DNA from: a virus
Reading direction: 5' to 3' (one strand)
Virus record (IMG/VR): IMGVR_UViG_3300025759_000290
Coordinates: 1-35,577 of that record
DNA length: 35,577 nucleotides
Shown: positions 1-35,577 of the stretch, piece by piece
Layout of the letters: every line of letters starts with the position of its first letter
Numbering within the stretch: the first letter of the stretch is position 1
Position numbers and translations under genes: made by a program
The notes under the pieces: generated by a model
Database searches by the model: none
What the model saw: only the letters and a program-made list of their open reading frames with translations
What the model was told of the DNA's origin: nothing

Positions 1-145
1 ACCTACTCCCCATACTGCCTGGCAATAGTTTCACTATTGCTTCAAAATTAATGCTCTTGCCACTCACGTCTGCAATAGCAACTTCTAACACTACAATCAC
101 ATGTAGCGGACTAGTCCACCAGAACGACATAAATCCTCTTTGCCT
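1..145. repeat. Terminal direct repeat, left copy
   Basis: The first 145 bases are repeated at 35433-35577 in the same orientation. The only difference is at position 19 (C here, T at 35451). The repeat lies inside a winged-helix gene whose reading frame continues across the join. This is what a circular or concatemeric phage genome looks like when read slightly more than once around; it is not evidence of true physical ends. Confidence 0.95.
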
Positions 146-30972: not shown

Positions 30973-30998
30973 GATAACAGCCTTTTACTTTTGTTATC
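30973..30998 (-). other. Inverted repeat at the terS stop
   Basis: GATAACA and TGTTATC (7 bp, 12-base loop) enclose the terS stop codon, and a second short hairpin (AAGGG, CAA, CCCTT) follows at 30956-30968. No T-run. It may be an attenuator or RNA-stability element in the 150-base space before the small membrane peptide. Confidence 0.3.
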
Positions 30999-31494
30999 CG
31001 CCCTTTTTTTTCTTTAAATCCTTGTTAGGGAATTGTCCTTCGGCTGCAGGTATTGATTTAACAGCATTTATAATCTTTGCTTCTTTGTTATCCGTCACCT
31101 GTCCGCCAATCCGTTCCTTTGCGCCAGTCAAAACTTCATTTAGATTGATCGTAGCATGAACATTTTCAACTCTATCCTTCCATGTCTTTGGGTCTTGGTT
31201 TTTTAAGTAGAATATCTGGGCAGTAACATTGCCGTCTGTTGCCGAAGTAAACAAAGAATTAGTCACTTGAGCAAGACCACGAGCTTGACCCCTTTTTAAA
31301 GCCTCCTCAAAATCCTCAGAACGTTTTCTGCTGCGGTCTATAGTTGACCATGAAACGCCCAAAGCGCGGGCAATCTGAGTTGTTCCAAGACCTCTGGACG
31401 CTAAGTTTTCTACTTGCTCTAAATCTAAATCAATTCGTTTTCTGCCTACTTTTTTAATAGGTTTATTGTCTTTTTTTGGTGTTTTTTGCTCCAT
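30994..31494 (-). CDS. terS: Terminase small subunit
   Basis: The 166-residue protein has a basic N-terminus, a helix-turn-helix TTQIARALGVSWSTIDRSRKR (in short ALGVSWSTIDRSRK, about 42-58), then KRGQARGLAQVTNSLFTSAT and YLKNQDPKTWKDR near 100-113, a common small-terminase pattern. It recognises the packaging site and activates the large subunit. It is the first gene of the late leftward transcript and is divergent from the plus-strand early block. Confidence 0.85.
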   Translation of the reverse strand: MEQKTPKKDNKPIKKVGRKRIDLDLEQVENLASRGLGTTQIARALGVSWSTIDRSRKRSEDFEEALKRGQARGLAQVTNSLFTSATDGNVTAQIFYLKNQDPKTWKDRVENVHATINLNEVLTGAKERIGGQVTDNKEAKIINAVKSIPAAEGQFPNKDLKKKKGG

Positions 31495-31574: not shown

Positions 31575-31604
31575 TTGTAATATATAGTAAATTAGAGTTA
31601 TAAT
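31575..31604 (+). promoter_or_regulatory. Strong sigma70-like promoter of the rightward early block
   Basis: TTGTAA (31575-31580), 18 bases, TATAAT (31599-31604, perfect). The start codon at 31649 follows after a short leader with AGGAGG. It lies in the 154-base divergent space 31495-31648; I see no equally good promoter for terS in the other direction. Confidence 0.65.
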
Positions 31605-31648
31605 TCGTACTGTAAGGAAAAACAAATACTTTAGGAGGTACTTACAAA

Positions 31649-31924
31649 ATGAAAACAAATAAAATAATAGAACATATAACCAAATCTTTTGAGAACTGGA
31701 TTAAATCTGAAAACTTATCTGAATATAGACAAGATTTAGATTTTATTGTTAGAGAAACAAAAGATGAAGATTGCATTATCGAGATATGTTTTGAAAGTAT
31801 TTTACATAGCATAATAAATGATGATGTAGGTTTCTTTGATAATGAAAAGGCTGAAAAGATTTTTGGATTATCAGAATATGAATGGTCGCCTTACGCTTCA
31901 TGGAAAATATCGGTTTATAAATAA
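31649..31924 (+). CDS. Early-block hypothetical protein 1
   Basis: A 91-residue acidic protein, helical at first (KIIEHITKSFENWIKSENLSE, in short HITKSFENWIKSE) and ending FGLSEYEWSPYASWKISVYK. It is the first gene behind the TATAAT promoter, with a near-perfect AGGAGG, and is followed by an intrinsic terminator that separates it from the rest. That layout suggests the highest expression of the block. Small acidic first-expressed phage proteins are often host-takeover or anti-defence factors; no family is recognised here. Confidence 0.75.
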   Translation: MKTNKIIEHITKSFENWIKSENLSEYRQDLDFIVRETKDEDCIIEICFESILHSIINDDVGFFDNEKAEKIFGLSEYEWSPYASWKISVYK

Positions 31925-31941
31925 CCCCAACCCAACCAAAC

Positions 31942-31965
31942 AAGCCCGCTTTATGTGGGCTTTTT
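31942..31965 (+). terminator. Rho-independent terminator
   Basis: AAGCCCGC, loop TTTAT, GTGGGCTT form an 8-bp stem with one G-T pair, followed by a T-run (TTTTT). It sits 17 bases after the stop of the first early gene. Genes downstream must rely on read-through or their own promoter. Confidence 0.85.
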
Positions 31966-32005
31966 GGGTAGAAGTCATAACATTTAATTACTTTAGGAGG
32001 TAAAC

Positions 32006-32293
32006 ATGACAAATATAAAAAGTGCAAATATTAAATTTTCAGTTGGTGGCGAATTAGATATGCCTATATATAATGCTGTTGACATACACCCACAGCGTTG
32101 GAATGGTTGGTTAAAACCAATAGTTACGATTGAAACAGCTTTACAAATAGCTGAAGATATATTTAACCATGATGACCCCTCTGATAATGAGCCATATCAC
32201 GACATACATGAAGCAATAAGAGAAGCTAGGGAAAACCTAGAAGATACTGTTGAGGTTGGTGGCTCTATTATTTGGGATGAGGTAACACAATGA
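32006..32293 (+). CDS. Early-block hypothetical protein 2
   Basis: A 95-residue acidic protein. It has a beta-rich start (ANIKFSVGGELDMPIYNAV), RWNGWLKPIVTIETALQIAEDIF in part (helix ETALQIAEDIF) and an acidic C-terminus (REARENLEDTVEVGGS). Its leader repeats the first 13 bases (ACTTTAGGAGGTA) of the first gene's leader. It ends ATGA-coupled to the next gene. No known domain. Confidence 0.7.
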   Translation: MTNIKSANIKFSVGGELDMPIYNAVDIHPQRWNGWLKPIVTIETALQIAEDIFNHDDPSDNEPYHDIHEAIREARENLEDTVEVGGSIIWDEVTQ

Positions 32294-32520
32294 GTGCTGA
32301 TACATGGATTGTAAATTGTGATTGTTGTAACACAACCATTGATAAATTAGACCAAGATAAGGGCGTTTATATTGTCGGTGATAGTGAAGAAGTATGCTCT
32401 GAAAAATGCGTTAAGCAAATATTAGGAGAAGAAGAATACAAACAAGCTGAGGAGGAATGGGAATATGACGGCCATTCTGATTCTTATTATTGGACTTATT
32501 GGGAACAAAGGGAGGTATAA
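32290..32520 (+). CDS. Early-block small zinc-finger-like protein
   Basis: A 76-residue protein with C10-x-C12-C13 and C36-EK-C40 patterns (CDCCN ... CSEKC), a plausible zinc ribbon, then an acidic aromatic tail (EEWEYDGHSDSYYWTYWEQ). Overlaps the previous gene by ATGA. Small zinc-binding proteins in early regions often bind host proteins or nucleic acid, but nothing here names the target. Confidence 0.65.
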   Translation: MSADTWIVNCDCCNTTIDKLDQDKGVYIVGDSEEVCSEKCVKQILGEEEYKQAEEEWEYDGHSDSYYWTYWEQREV

Positions 32521-32523
32521 CCA

Positions 32524-32724
32524 ATGCAATTAATACAAAAACCAAAGAAAGTTACACGACTACAAAAACATTTCATAACGGACATTATAAGAACTCTGGA
32601 CGATGACCTTCAGAACTTAGACATTGAATCGATCGAAAATCTAATAATTGTTATGCTCGGCTTTGAGAAGAACTGGCGAGTGTTTCAGGACTATATAACT
32701 GGAGAGCTTAATCAAAATGGATAA
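32524..32724 (+). CDS. Early-block hypothetical protein 4
   Basis: A 66-residue protein with a basic start (LIQKPKKVTRLQKHFITDII) and a helical acidic middle (IESIENLIIVMLGFEKNW). GGAGGT lies seven bases before the ATG. Ends eight bases inside the next gene. Not recognised. Confidence 0.65.
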   Translation: MQLIQKPKKVTRLQKHFITDIIRTLDDDLQNLDIESIENLIIVMLGFEKNWRVFQDYITGELNQNG

Positions 32725-33034
32725 ACTAAAGAAACAAGAATATTACTGTGATTATTGTGAAACCACAGAAGCAACTGAATATGACGAAGAAAACGTATGG
32801 TGGGTATGTGATATAAGGCCTTTTGATGTTTTTTGTTGTGGAAGTTGTCTTGATGCTCACATTGAATCTATTGAAAGAGGTGACTGGCATGACCATGACG
32901 GAGACAATAAAGGGTTAGAGGTCTATTATAAAGATGAAATCAAAACCAATTGGATTGGTTATCCTTATAGATTAATTTCAGCAGATAGTAATGAACTAAT
33001 TAAACAGGGAAAAATAGGAGAAGTTGTCCAATGA
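32717..33034 (+). CDS. Early-block cysteine-rich putative zinc-binding protein
   Basis: A 105-residue protein with C11-DY-C14, C31 and C40-C41-GS-C44, plus H48, a likely two-knuckle zinc ribbon. The C-terminal half is strand-rich (EVYYKDEIKTNWIGYPYRLI). It overlaps the preceding gene and is ATGA-coupled to the next. With the 76-residue protein it makes two cysteine proteins in this block. Confidence 0.65.
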   Translation: MDKLKKQEYYCDYCETTEATEYDEENVWWVCDIRPFDVFCCGSCLDAHIESIERGDWHDHDGDNKGLEVYYKDEIKTNWIGYPYRLISADSNELIKQGKIGEVVQ

Positions 33035-33210
33035 GCATACCAAAGACCAGAACACACAAAAGCGTAATAGGGCAGCTCCGCAAGAAGTACGGACTAAAAG
33101 ACAATACACCTATTCACAAAGTAGAACAAATAATGACACCTAAGGACTGGCAAGAGTTTAGCGAAGCCTTGACCTTTCCTAATGGTAAACCAACACAAAG
33201 GGGGAAATGA
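33031..33210 (+). CDS. Early-block small basic protein
   Basis: A 59-residue frame, MSIPKTRTHKSVIGQLRKKY then KVEQIMTPKDWQEFSEALTF and a basic end. Start and stop both overlap neighbours as ATGA, so it fits the coupled chain exactly and fills what would otherwise be a 170-base gap. The sequence looks coding (mixed helix, aromatic residues). Not recognised. Confidence 0.7.
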   Translation: MSIPKTRTHKSVIGQLRKKYGLKDNTPIHKVEQIMTPKDWQEFSEALTFPNGKPTQRGK

Positions 33211-33497
33211 TGAGTAAATTAGTATTAAGAATTGATGAAGAATGTGGCTCAATGAGTCCATGGGGATTGTACAAAAGTAAAGAACAATTAAGAGAATCTT
33301 TACATGAACAAAGTGCTTATGGAAGTTGGGATGAAGAAGAATACAAAAAACTAAATGCCCATGTCGATTTAGAACAATACTGCGATTTATTTCAGTGTGG
33401 ATATATTGAGTTTACTGAAGAACAAATTGAAGAAGCCCTTATAAATTATGCAGAAAAACATAAACTTAAAGACAACTGGGGAGAGGAGATTAACTAA
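33207..33497 (+). CDS. Early-block hypothetical protein 7
   Basis: A 96-residue acidic protein. There are two adjacent ATGs at the start (33207 and 33210); GGGGGA precedes both. It begins SKLVLRIDEECGSMSPWGLY with beta character, followed by a helical part (KEQLRESLHEQSAYGSWDEE) and EEQIEEALINYAEKHK near the end. No recognised domain. Confidence 0.65.
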   Translation: MMSKLVLRIDEECGSMSPWGLYKSKEQLRESLHEQSAYGSWDEEEYKKLNAHVDLEQYCDLFQCGYIEFTEEQIEEALINYAEKHKLKDNWGEEIN

Positions 33498-33583
33498 TGG
33501 ACCTACAACTATTACCAGTACTAATGTTTATGGCGTTTTGCTTGTATGCAATTGCTTTAATAATCAAGGATAAAGAAAAATGA
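33497..33583 (+). CDS. Tiny single-helix membrane peptide of the early block
   Basis: A 28-residue frame MDLQLLPVLMFMAFCLYAIA then LIIKDKEK: one hydrophobic helix and a charged end. The ATG overlaps the previous stop (TAATG) and the stop overlaps the next start (ATGA), so it is locked into the operon. GGAG lies upstream within the previous gene. A membrane-active early peptide is plausible; not recognised. Confidence 0.65.
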   Translation: MDLQLLPVLMFMAFCLYAIALIIKDKEK

Positions 33584-33792
33584 AAATATATATATGTGAT
33601 GATAACGGTGCAGAGACAACTTGGATTATAAAATCTAAAGATGTTAAATCTTTTTTAAAAGATAAAGATTGGATTGATAAAAGTGAACTAAGGGCATACC
33701 AGATTAATAACTTACATCAAATATGTATTGCTATTTGTGGTAGTGCTGGACAATATACAGGCGATATTTACGAAAAGGAAGATAACCAATGA
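33580..33792 (+). CDS. Early-block hypothetical protein 9
   Basis: A 70-residue protein with a beta-rich start (MKIYICDDNGAETTWIIKS) and helix KDVKSFLKDKDWIDKSE, then QICIAICGSAGQYTGDIYE. Coupled by ATGA on both sides. No recognised domain. Confidence 0.65.
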   Translation: MKIYICDDNGAETTWIIKSKDVKSFLKDKDWIDKSELRAYQINNLHQICIAICGSAGQYTGDIYEKEDNQ

Positions 33793-34037
33793 TATTTTCT
33801 ATAAACATCAACGGCTCAATTGTTGACTGGTGCTACACCATTAACAACCAAGAGAAACAATATCATCAAACATGGATACCCAAGATCGGAGATATTCAAA
33901 TACTAACTAAAGACCTAAACGGCTTAACAGTTAGCGAGGTTAAAAAAACAATCTTAGAAGATATACAACCAGATATACAAATGGTGAGAGATAACACCAA
34001 CAAGAAGGCGAGAGCTAGGAGGGTAAAAAATGTCTAA
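33789..34037 (+). CDS. Early-block hypothetical protein 10
   Basis: An 82-residue protein with a strand-rich first half (MIFSININGSIVDWCYTINN) and helical second half ending in a basic tail (NTNKKARARRVKN). It overlaps the next gene by eight bases. Not recognised. Confidence 0.65.
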   Translation: MIFSININGSIVDWCYTINNQEKQYHQTWIPKIGDIQILTKDLNGLTVSEVKKTILEDIQPDIQMVRDNTNKKARARRVKNV

Positions 34038-34266
34038 AGAAGGAGATAGAATCAGAGAACTAATTGAAGTGGAGAGAGATTTAAAATCAGCTCCACGAAA
34101 AAAAGAAATGCTAGTAACAATCCAACTACAACCAATTGAATTTAATGTTTTCATTGGTAATAAACCACCAACGCGTGATGAAGTAGGCAGGGCAATCATT
34201 CAACTAATTGAGAATGACAATTACTACTATGAAGAAATAATTAAACACGTTAAAGATGAAGATTGA
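34030..34266 (+). CDS. Early-block hypothetical protein 11
   Basis: A 78-residue protein with a charged helical start (EGDRIRELIEVERDLKSAP), then strands LVTIQLQPIEFNVFIG and a helical acidic end. GGAGGG lies six bases before the ATG. Not recognised. Confidence 0.65.
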   Translation: MSKEGDRIRELIEVERDLKSAPRKKEMLVTIQLQPIEFNVFIGNKPPTRDEVGRAIIQLIENDNYYYEEIIKHVKDED

Positions 34267-34543
34267 CCAGGAGCAACTAGAAAAAGCGACTGCATTTATT
34301 CTGGAAACAAATAAATACATCTACGAACAAGCGGAGGAACTAGCAAAACAACATCTTCAATCAGAAGATAACAAGAACTTTAAAGCTAGGATTAAACGCT
34401 ATGAGCCAGAAAGCAAAGAAACATTTAAACATTTTGCCGATGAAGTAAGAGCATGGGCCGAGTGTGAAAAGAATTATCCGCTAATGGATTTCATACATAA
34501 ATTTTTTAGAATTAAGAAGGGTTATAAAAACCAATTATATTAA
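34256..34543 (+). CDS. Early-block helical hypothetical protein
   Basis: A 95-residue, mostly helical, charged protein (EQLEKATAFILETNKYIYEQ, AEELAKQHLQ, FKHFADEVRAWAECEK) with a basic C-terminus (FFRIKKGYKN). It starts 11 bases before the upstream stop. A coiled-coil or small helical bundle is likely; function unknown. Confidence 0.65.
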   Translation: MKIDQEQLEKATAFILETNKYIYEQAEELAKQHLQSEDNKNFKARIKRYEPESKETFKHFADEVRAWAECEKNYPLMDFIHKFFRIKKGYKNQLY

Positions 34544-34558
34544 ACAAGGAGCATAAAA

Positions 34559-34777
34559 TTGAGAAATAAAGAACAAATAATGGAAAACCTTTTACACATA
34601 TACAGCGACTTAACCGCTTTGCATGAAAGTTTAAAAGGTAATGCAGATTATGTAATTAGAGAAGAAACCAAAAAAGAAAATCCAGATTATTTTCTTATAA
34701 GCGTAGAAACTCATAGTGTTGGTTTAGTTGAATCAGCATTGAAAGAACTAAATAATACAAAGGAATTAATAGTATAA
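34559..34777 (+). CDS. Early-block last gene (TTG start)
   Basis: A 72-residue helical protein. AAGGAG lies seven bases before TTG (34559), so I keep TTG; an ATG at 34580 is the alternative. The middle reads LHIYSDLTALHESLKG and SVGLVESALKELNNTK. It ends the rightward block about 50 bases from the convergent winged-helix gene. I see no clear terminator in 34778-34830. Confidence 0.6.
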   Translation: MRNKEQIMENLLHIYSDLTALHESLKGNADYVIREETKKENPDYFLISVETHSVGLVESALKELNNTKELIV

Positions 34778-34830
34778 TTAACCAATCACGGAAGCTGAGA
34801 AGGGTATCCTCAAACCCCCTAAAGTATAAA

Positions 34831-35268
34831 CTACTCTTCTTGGCTTTCTCTTTCCAACATCACGCCTAAACCAACCAACAAGAAATGCTTATGCTGAACG
34901 CCACGTTTCAGCTTTCTATATACTTTCCTCTCTCCGTCTATTGCACACCAAATAATATTTTGATCCATAAGATTCTGGATACCTTTACTAACCGTATGCC
35001 TATTCATTCCCACCATTAACGCCAAGTAGCTAACCGCATCATGGCTAGAATAATCTTGAGCTGAATACCTCTCGCACAACGCAAACAATACCAGCTTCTC
35101 TCTCGCCTTAATCTCCGAGCTGCCCAGATGTTTTTTATACCACTTCCAAACCACCTGTTTCAGCTTCGAGTAACTCTTATACTTCATGGCTACACCGTAG
35201 GTTATCAACCCGCTCTTTTCTGGCTCACCGATTGGCTCGACCACCAACCACCATTTCTGCTCTTTCAA
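34831..35268 (-). CDS. Winged-helix protein, putative replication initiator or regulator
   Basis: A 145-residue protein starting at TTG (35266-35268), directly after the stop of the upstream winged-helix gene, with an AAGGCGG stretch about ten bases before. The body has REKLVLFALCERYSA and HDAVSYLALMVGMNRHTVSKG, in short LALMVGMNRHTVSKGIQNL, a helix-turn-helix (about 85-105), then a wing IIWCAIDGERKVYRK. This layout recalls HTH_36 domains at the start of phage replication initiators, and also regulators. It is convergent with the early block and, with its neighbour, could control it. Confidence 0.65.
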   Translation of the reverse strand: MKEQKWWLVVEPIGEPEKSGLITYGVAMKYKSYSKLKQVVWKWYKKHLGSSEIKAREKLVLFALCERYSAQDYSSHDAVSYLALMVGMNRHTVSKGIQNLMDQNIIWCAIDGERKVYRKLKRGVQHKHFLLVGLGVMLERESQEE

Positions 35269-35577
35269 CTAACTAACCGCCTTAAGGCTTCTTTGCCTCT
35301 CAGTAAACCATTCATTTAATAACTGCATCGACTCCTTACACATTCTATACACTCGCTTCCTCTTATCCTTTCCTACCGCCTTGCACATATATCCTCTCTC
35401 AACATAATCATCTAACACCGATGCTACAGTCGACCTACTCCCCATACTGCTTGGCAATAGTTTCACTATTGCTTCAAAATTAATGCTCTTGCCACTCACG
35501 TCTGCAATAGCAACTTCTAACACTACAATCACATGTAGCGGACTAGTCCACCAGAACGACATAAATCCTCTTTGCCT
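35269..35577 (-). CDS. Winged-helix DNA-binding protein, 3' part (continues at 1-202)
   Basis: The remaining part of the 121-residue protein begun at position 202 across the join (the linear view would start it at 35562). It contains INFEAIVKLLPSSMGSRSTV and VASVLDDYVERGYMCKAVGK, in short SSMGSRSTVASVLDDYVERGY, the recognition helix region, and a basic wing KDKRKRVYRM. The Ser allele (AGC) is here; the left end has Gly. Its stop (TAG, 35269-35271) abuts the TTG of the second winged-helix gene, so the two form a pair. Confidence 0.75.
   Translation of the reverse strand, partial: RQRGFMSFWWTSPLHVIVVLEVAIADVSGKSINFEAIVKLLPSSMGSRSTVASVLDDYVERGYMCKAVGKDKRKRVYRMCKESMQLLNEWFTERQRSLKAVS
35433..35577. 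repeat. Terminal direct repeat, right copy
   Basis: Same 145 bases as 1-145, with T instead of C at 35451. The mismatch changes Ser to Gly in the winged-helix protein, so the two ends come from different alleles or one contains an error. Confidence 0.95.

Follow-up and report, generated by a model that had tools for sequence, protein, structure and literature searches.

What does a phage keep in a compact block of small genes whose products are not recognised? The question is raised by positions 31575 to 34777 of a 35,577-nucleotide (nt) stretch of viral DNA, the IMG/VR record IMGVR_UViG_3300025759_000290 (here called the window, meaning the whole stretch), which comes from an uncultured marine phage that is podovirus-like and encodes an integrase. 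An initial annotation had regarded the block as the best place in the window for a new host-takeover or anti-defence system. According to our analysis, the main value of the locus is a gene cassette and an anti-leader RNA rather than a new protein system. The first gene, g1, occupies a swappable slot between two copies of a leader sequence, and the 3′ end of the operon carries an RNA hairpin whose loop is complementary to that leader.

The first gene as a swappable cassette

The block is flanked by the divergent gene of the terminase small subunit TerS (30994..31494, − strand; phrog_309, E = 2e-29) and by the convergent gene of WH1 (34831..35268, − strand), a winged-helix, replication-initiator-like protein that is kept in relatives and matches HTH_36 and phrog_6643, both weakly. 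Searches with WH1 and with the terminase large subunit (TerL) gathered many relatives, all uncultured, from which we took a comparison set of 64 distinct TerS-to-WH1 islands of 0.5 to 4 kb.

Leader 1 (31627..31640, + strand), TACTTTAGGAGGTA, was recognised from the family alignment and as an exact repeat, and holds the Shine-Dalgarno (SD) sequence of g1. The repeat search places a second exact copy, leader 2, at 31989..32002 (+ strand), where it holds the SD of g2. Taken alone, a repeat of 13 exact bases within 3.3 kb of AT-rich sequence is only modestly unlikely (about 0.3 expected by our estimate). The 12-base leader core occurs 69 times within islands (152 kb) and never outside them (483 kb), and in aligned island starts most of the family has the leader ahead of its first gene. 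The leader of a sister lineage, TACTTTGGAGAAGTA, is mostly present on both sides of the slot.

Two leaders are found in 16/64 islands, where they invariably bracket one extra first open reading frame (ORF). All 16 of these islands also contain a constant terminator-like hairpin, AAGCCCGC-TTTAT-GTGGGCTT, identified by folding and by comparison across slots and located in the window at 31942..31962 (+ strand); since the two-leader set had been picked without the hairpin, no ascertainment effect is involved. The spacer after g1 folds at −19.2 kcal/mol (z score, −3.0). Although the slot ORFs are unrelated, the hairpin in nearly all cases lies 19 to 26 nt from the stop codon, and with a scan for the hairpin pattern about 30 slot ORFs, from about 20 unrelated families, are counted. 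These families are nearly restricted to slots and are never the first gene of a slot-free island, while in 14/16 cases the gene after leader 2 comes from a family that opens slot-free islands. The best empty sites are 94 to 99% identical downstream of the leader. Five slot ORF families are common to both leader lineages, with 82 to 97% amino-acid identity; in the cross-lineage pairs compared, nucleotide identity is 83 to 95% in the ORF and 42 to 54% in the flanks, the upstream flanks being at background. Comparison of the islands thus identifies g1 as a swappable first-slot cassette, consisting of leader, orphan ORF, constant hairpin, and leader, ahead of the ordinary first gene g2.

The exchange may be of a common kind. 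That the slot reflects ordinary mosaicism, through homologous recombination at the conserved leader and terminator and with no dedicated mobility, seems to us slightly on the probable side. A Sak4-like annealing protein and an exonuclease are among the products of the phage; some 60 nt of homology at the hairpin on the right, together with a short stretch at the leader, would suffice; no recombinase accompanies the cassette, and each genome has at most one cassette. On the other hand, slot families hardly ever occur elsewhere in the island, never as ordinary first genes, and the leader is the insert boundary in all cases. The two leaders are more similar within than between genomes in group 1 (p = 0.0036) and not in group 2 (p = 0.30); as the excess appears in group 1 only, a target-site-duplication mechanism is not established. 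An integron attC reading was discarded, TTTTTGGGT standing where GTTRRRY is expected, with a single cassette per genome and no arrays.

The hairpin core (CCCGC..GTGGG, TTTTTGGGTG) also lies between genes in L204, L235, L237, and L243, phages without clear kinship to the family (the link of L204 is a 31% exonuclease match alone), and may be a widespread terminator type.

A turnover island and the question of anti-defence

The 64 islands hold 523 ORFs, coded almost entirely on one strand and falling into 154 families, of which 85 are singletons. This comparison of gene content among relatives, which the initial annotation had proposed as a check, marks the region between the conserved TerS and WH1 anchors as a hypervariable accessory island with rapid gene turnover. 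The block is a turnover island of independent genes, and the idea of one new system has to be given up.

Cassette and gene pool cross phage types. L201, which has a lambda-type GpA terminase (E = 5e-96), shares the slot and its hairpin and has related first genes; L205, L222, and L238 share island genes and the same hairpin, and resemble none of the window genes tested. Among 80 GpA-terminase loci, 13 hold one or more island families, and the hairpin is present in the L201 contig only. In L201, L205, and L222, representing a second phage type, the intergenic stretch after slot-related genes contains repeats similar to AAATTTGCCTTT, which can be read as MKFAF peptides.

In several relatives, the ordinary first-gene position is taken by an Ocr-like anti-restriction family (L113:2794-3102; phrog_2568, E = 2.5e-8); a PDB sequence search with this protein gave zero matches, so the assignment is that of the PHROG profile alone. 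Small, often acidic, fast-exchanging front genes, together with the Ocr-like relatives and the sharing of genes with phage of unrelated terminase, support takeover or counter-defence at the level of the island rather than for any single gene of the window. We infer that most products, the slot gene included, probably counter host defences or adjust host metabolism. Of the takeover block initially proposed, the accessory operon, the hypervariable slot, and the Ocr-like genes of relatives hold, while no window gene could be assigned to such a role.

It counts against this view that no product of g1 to g13 matches a recognised anti-defence protein in Pfam or PHROGs, nor phrog_2568 (Ocr) in the PHROG profile search. 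When all island families were compared with Pfam, PHROGs, PADLOC, and NCBIfam, the outcome was mostly weak single matches, the Ocr-like family being the sole informative one. The products might instead serve ordinary metabolism or lysogeny control, as small regulators or replication helpers. The lack of an anti-defence match in the window would fit this, as would the housekeeping manner in which the recurrent g6 and g10 to g12 are conserved. Given the extreme gene turnover, the genes held in common with a phage of unrelated terminase, and the Ocr-like gene that relatives have at this position, we consider it rather unlikely.

A 3′-terminal hairpin with a loop complementary to the leader

The most unusual feature lies just past the block as first delimited, and was missed there. 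A 17-bp stem (34790-34806 / 34832-34848), whose right arm lies within the last WH1 codons, forms the hairpin RNA at 34790..34848 (+ strand); its apical loop carries the anti-leader ACCCCCTAAAGTATA (34814..34828, + strand), complementary to leaders 1 and 2. Pairing of the loop with the leaders is calculated at −17.3 and −16.0 kcal/mol, and among 14,204 sites on both strands its top target in the window is leader 1. The fold has a z score of −3.7 as + strand RNA versus −0.5 as − strand RNA. Across 12 distinct stems from relatives, standard pairs fill 203/204 cells on the + strand versus 157/204 on the − strand, where the stem is poorer because G-U wobbles of the + strand turn into A-C. Compensatory changes occur at stem pairs 12 and 15; as the right arm lies within WH1 codons, it is the left arm that follows the right. 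In L213, L233, and L242 the hairpin is several hundred bases from WH1, and the element is therefore not tied to that gene.

Loop and leader vary together. Pairing with the leader of the own haplotype averages −15.7 kcal/mol versus −12.0 kcal/mol for other haplotypes, which 0/2000 permutations equalled, a count that overstates independence since genomes of the same haplotype are related. A complement of at least 9 nt is found in 60/77 genomes versus 3.5% of shuffled leaders. In other haplotypes the stems and loops differ and each loop fits its own leader, as with loop CUUCUCCAAAG and leader CTTTGGAGAAG in group 2, UUUACUCUCCUU and AAGGAGAGTAAA in L176, CUCCUAAAGUAU and ATACTTTAGGAG in L045, and CCUAAAGAU and ATCTTTAGG in L076. 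Separate loop-leader matches are those of the G1b, G2, L176, and L076 haplotypes, and a further form of the leader, GGAGAAGATAAA, which occurs in genomes of the L207/L221 type, likewise matches the loop region. These statistics on sequence and structure show that the operon ends, as + strand RNA, in a long hairpin with a loop that is complementary to the leader and co-varies with it. This suggests that 5′-3′ pairing limits translation of the first genes, as a built-in off-switch.

We judge reasonably probable a joint reading in which an accessory takeover or anti-defence island carries a swappable g1 cassette and a 3′ anti-leader hairpin that shuts off the first genes. Transcription would start at about 31605, and the promoter would drive slot gene and first gene in a strong early burst; the strong SDs would be those of the slot gene and g2. 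The cassette hairpin would terminate a share of the transcripts; such short transcripts would be without the anti-leader and continue to be translated. Leader and anti-leader are presumably both on a single transcript; in full-length transcripts, or through an RNA derived from their 3′ end, the loop could pair with leaders 1 and 2 and cover the ribosome-binding site, ending the burst.

Several observations weigh against this scheme, besides the relatedness of the permuted genomes. Other, unrelated sites in the window come close to the energy of the leader (−17.0 and −16.9 kcal/mol), and the main haplotype has a conserved A-C mismatch within the anti-leader:SD pairing. Group 2 also has a similar C-rich stretch, CCCCCCTAAAAG, without complementarity to its leader, and C5TAAAG may therefore be conserved in part for another reason. 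A clear anti-leader was looked for and not found in L041, L048, L077/78, L080/83/85, L112, L208, L245, L049/51/55, L105, and L126. Finally, the promoter scan lists no promoter over 31925-32005; with no strong promoter behind the g1 hairpin, full termination would silence 12 genes, and partial termination is an assumption of the scheme.

The 3′ hairpin might be a mere terminator between convergent operons, the likeness to the leader being a by-product of C-rich and G-rich arms and the leader being kept as a strong ribosome-binding site. Its position between convergent genes, the strong stem, a somewhat U-rich tail, and the unmatched C-rich stretch of group 2 would agree with this. An apical loop of about 25 nt is unlike those of usual terminators, however, and a terminator would account neither for the co-variation of loop and leader among haplotypes nor for the hairpins away from WH1; moreover, the group 2 leader is conserved though it is not a strong SD. 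We therefore deem this explanation unlikely. Quite improbable, in our opinion, is a bolder extension of the off-switch, by which leader and anti-leader would be a haplotype-specific RNA immunity code of marine temperate phages, acting in trans on superinfecting relatives, with the cassettes supplying rotating counter-defence genes under the same control by RNA. A further reading, in which the leader and the motif at the right end would act as DNA inverted repeats at the borders of a mobile or invertible island, could draw on their imperfect inverted repetition in most islands; it was rejected as very improbable, with the stem kept as + strand RNA only (by the cell counts above), a single orientation in all islands analysed, and no recombinase inside the island.

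If it works as supposed, the anti-leader hairpin would bring 5′-3′ untranslated region (UTR) control into phage operons and might set the specificity of an RNA-based immunity; the natural haplotypes are ready-made compensatory variants. The constant leader and hairpin offer a sequence handle for mining the many fast-swapping first genes of uncultured phages, and as this handle sits near the Ocr-like position, a guided anti-defence screen becomes possible.

Promoter, operon layout, and individual genes

The architecture given by the initial annotation was largely borne out. Its perfect TATAAT belongs to a sigma-70-like promoter, TTGTAA-18-TATAAT, at 31575..31604 (+ strand), which scores 10/12 in the promoter scan; promoter-like sites are not enriched in the region (8 seen versus 15 ± 4 expected), despite which this stretch aligns across the family. 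The repeated 13-base leaders and the terminator-like hairpin after gene one are real, yet they belong to a mobile first-slot cassette and are no local curiosities; what had been overlooked is the constant spacer by which g1 becomes a cassette. The estimate of about twelve small genes becomes 13 small ORFs, all on the + strand. They form a chain; of the 11 junctions from g2 to g13, 5 are ATGA and 1 is TAATG, longer overlaps account for 3, and short gaps for 2. In many relatives TACTTGATATATAAGTA forms an inverted repeat across the −35 box (within 150 bases of the island start, as in L013, L060, and L105), a possible operator whose window copy is degenerate.

For 13/13 ORFs the called frame scores best, and the nine ORFs with relatives are under purifying selection, the median ratios of nonsynonymous to synonymous substitution rates (dN/dS) being 0.07 to 0.27. 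The products were rightly described as unrecognised. None reaches a curated cut-off in Pfam, nothing lies above the cut-off in PHROGs, and the best PHROG match is the weak one of g3 to phrog_9706 (E = 5e-4), which has no assigned function there. The two Cys-rich proteins, the 28-residue hydrophobic peptide, and the 59-residue basic protein are likewise as annotated (g3 and g5, g8, and g6). Phage records gave no protein match for g1, g6, or g12, and no DNA match for the whole block.

Five genes are orphans or nearly so. The ORF of the cassette, g1 (31649..31924; 91 amino acids [aa], acidic), called from its frame score and slot position, has no relative in viral_contigs or phage records. The ordinary first gene of the island, g2 (32006..32293; 95 aa, acidic), has one relative, 89% identical, in L056 (dN/dS, 0.08), and its AlphaFold2 (AF2) model is unusable (predicted local distance difference test [pLDDT], 56). 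For g5 (32717..33034; 105 aa, six Cys) relatives were searched and none found, whereas g7 (33210..33497, alternative start 33207; 95 aa) has three relatives of 54 to 76% outside the TerL family set. The last, g13 (34559..34777; 72 aa, TTG start), is called from its frame score and has no relative in the fetched loci.

Three further genes are rare, namely g3 (32290..32520; 76 aa, five Cys), with relatives of up to 95% in the family and 89% in GpA-terminase loci, g4 (32524..32724; 66 aa; relatives 91 to 94%, dN/dS 0.11), and g9 (33580..33792; 70 aa; relatives about 57%, median dN/dS 0.27). The recurrent genes comprise g6 (33031..33210; 59 aa, isoelectric point 10.2), whose family is present in 47/64 islands and whose AF2 model (pLDDT, 79) has three helices and no PDB match; the conserved microprotein g8 (33497..33583), with 27 distinct relatives and a median dN/dS of 0.22; the basic g10 (33789..34037; 82 aa; 31 islands, dN/dS 0.11); g11 (34030..34266; 78 aa; 33 islands, dN/dS 0.13); and g12 (34256..34543; 95 aa; 27 islands, dN/dS 0.07).

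Genome setting

The termini of the window (1-145 and 35433-35577) overlap by 145 bp with one mismatch, which indicates that the genome is circular and measures about 35.4 kb; the minus-strand genes of the right end run on into those of the left. The genome encodes terminase subunits, an integrase (a phrog_1 match, with zero matches in a PDB sequence search), the Sak4-like annealing protein, the exonuclease, a primase/helicase, and P22/podovirus-like virion proteins. An auxiliary metabolic gene at 427-1185 is PAPS-reductase-like (phrog_424, E = 2e-39), and two contigs of the sister lineage also have it (86 to 88%). In that lineage, among the relatives L199-L246, TerL proteins are 81 to 84% identical while TerS is 34 to 48% identical, so that TerS, promoter, and leader are seemingly exchanged as one module. 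A lead to the host is L176, a contig binned as Candidatus Pelagibacter with a TerL 83% identical; as 0/200 other Candidatus Pelagibacter genomes match, this contig may be misbinned.

Comparison with known systems

Phage morons are extra genes among ordinary ones, with expression signals that include a terminator. The slot gene resembles them in being inserted with a terminator-type signal, and differs in that its leader is common to the host operon and duplicated, and in that one constant hairpin serves about 20 unrelated ORFs. In the PeSL cassettes of T4-like phages (Arbiol 2010, Comeau 2014), as far as the account in PMC4503421 extends, stem-loop regulatory segments flank accessory genes and mark shuffling. 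Set beside that account, our cassette likewise has a repeated stem-loop unit next to unrelated genes that marks shuffling in a hypervariable region, yet it is confined to one fixed first slot with at most one cassette per genome, and its unit is a hairpin plus SD leader in which no strong or early promoter is seen.

The T7 early region with Ocr (gene 0.3) (PMC7261183) also has small takeover genes clustered at the front, and an Ocr-like gene comes first among the ordinary genes in some of our relatives; the window differs by its lack of an Ocr-like gene and of an identified phage RNA polymerase, and by its marked gene turnover. The P1/P7 c4 and P22 sar RNAs are complementary to the ribosome-binding site of a phage gene, both control ant, and c4 pairing is haplotype-specific (PMC12197685). 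The anti-leader would similarly be a phage RNA complementary to a phage ribosome-binding site, but its target is the leader of an accessory first gene and the element stands at the 3′ end of the operon; against Rfam at gathering thresholds, the window gave 0 matches, to the P1/P7 c4 family or any other. The closest experimentally tested analogue is icaR of Staphylococcus aureus, where a C-rich motif in the 3′ UTR blocks translation by pairing with the SD of its own mRNA (PMC3868564). Here, too, a predicted 3′ motif is complementary to the SD, but in an operon of many genes, on the loop of a long covarying stem, and with leader-loop covariation among phage haplotypes.

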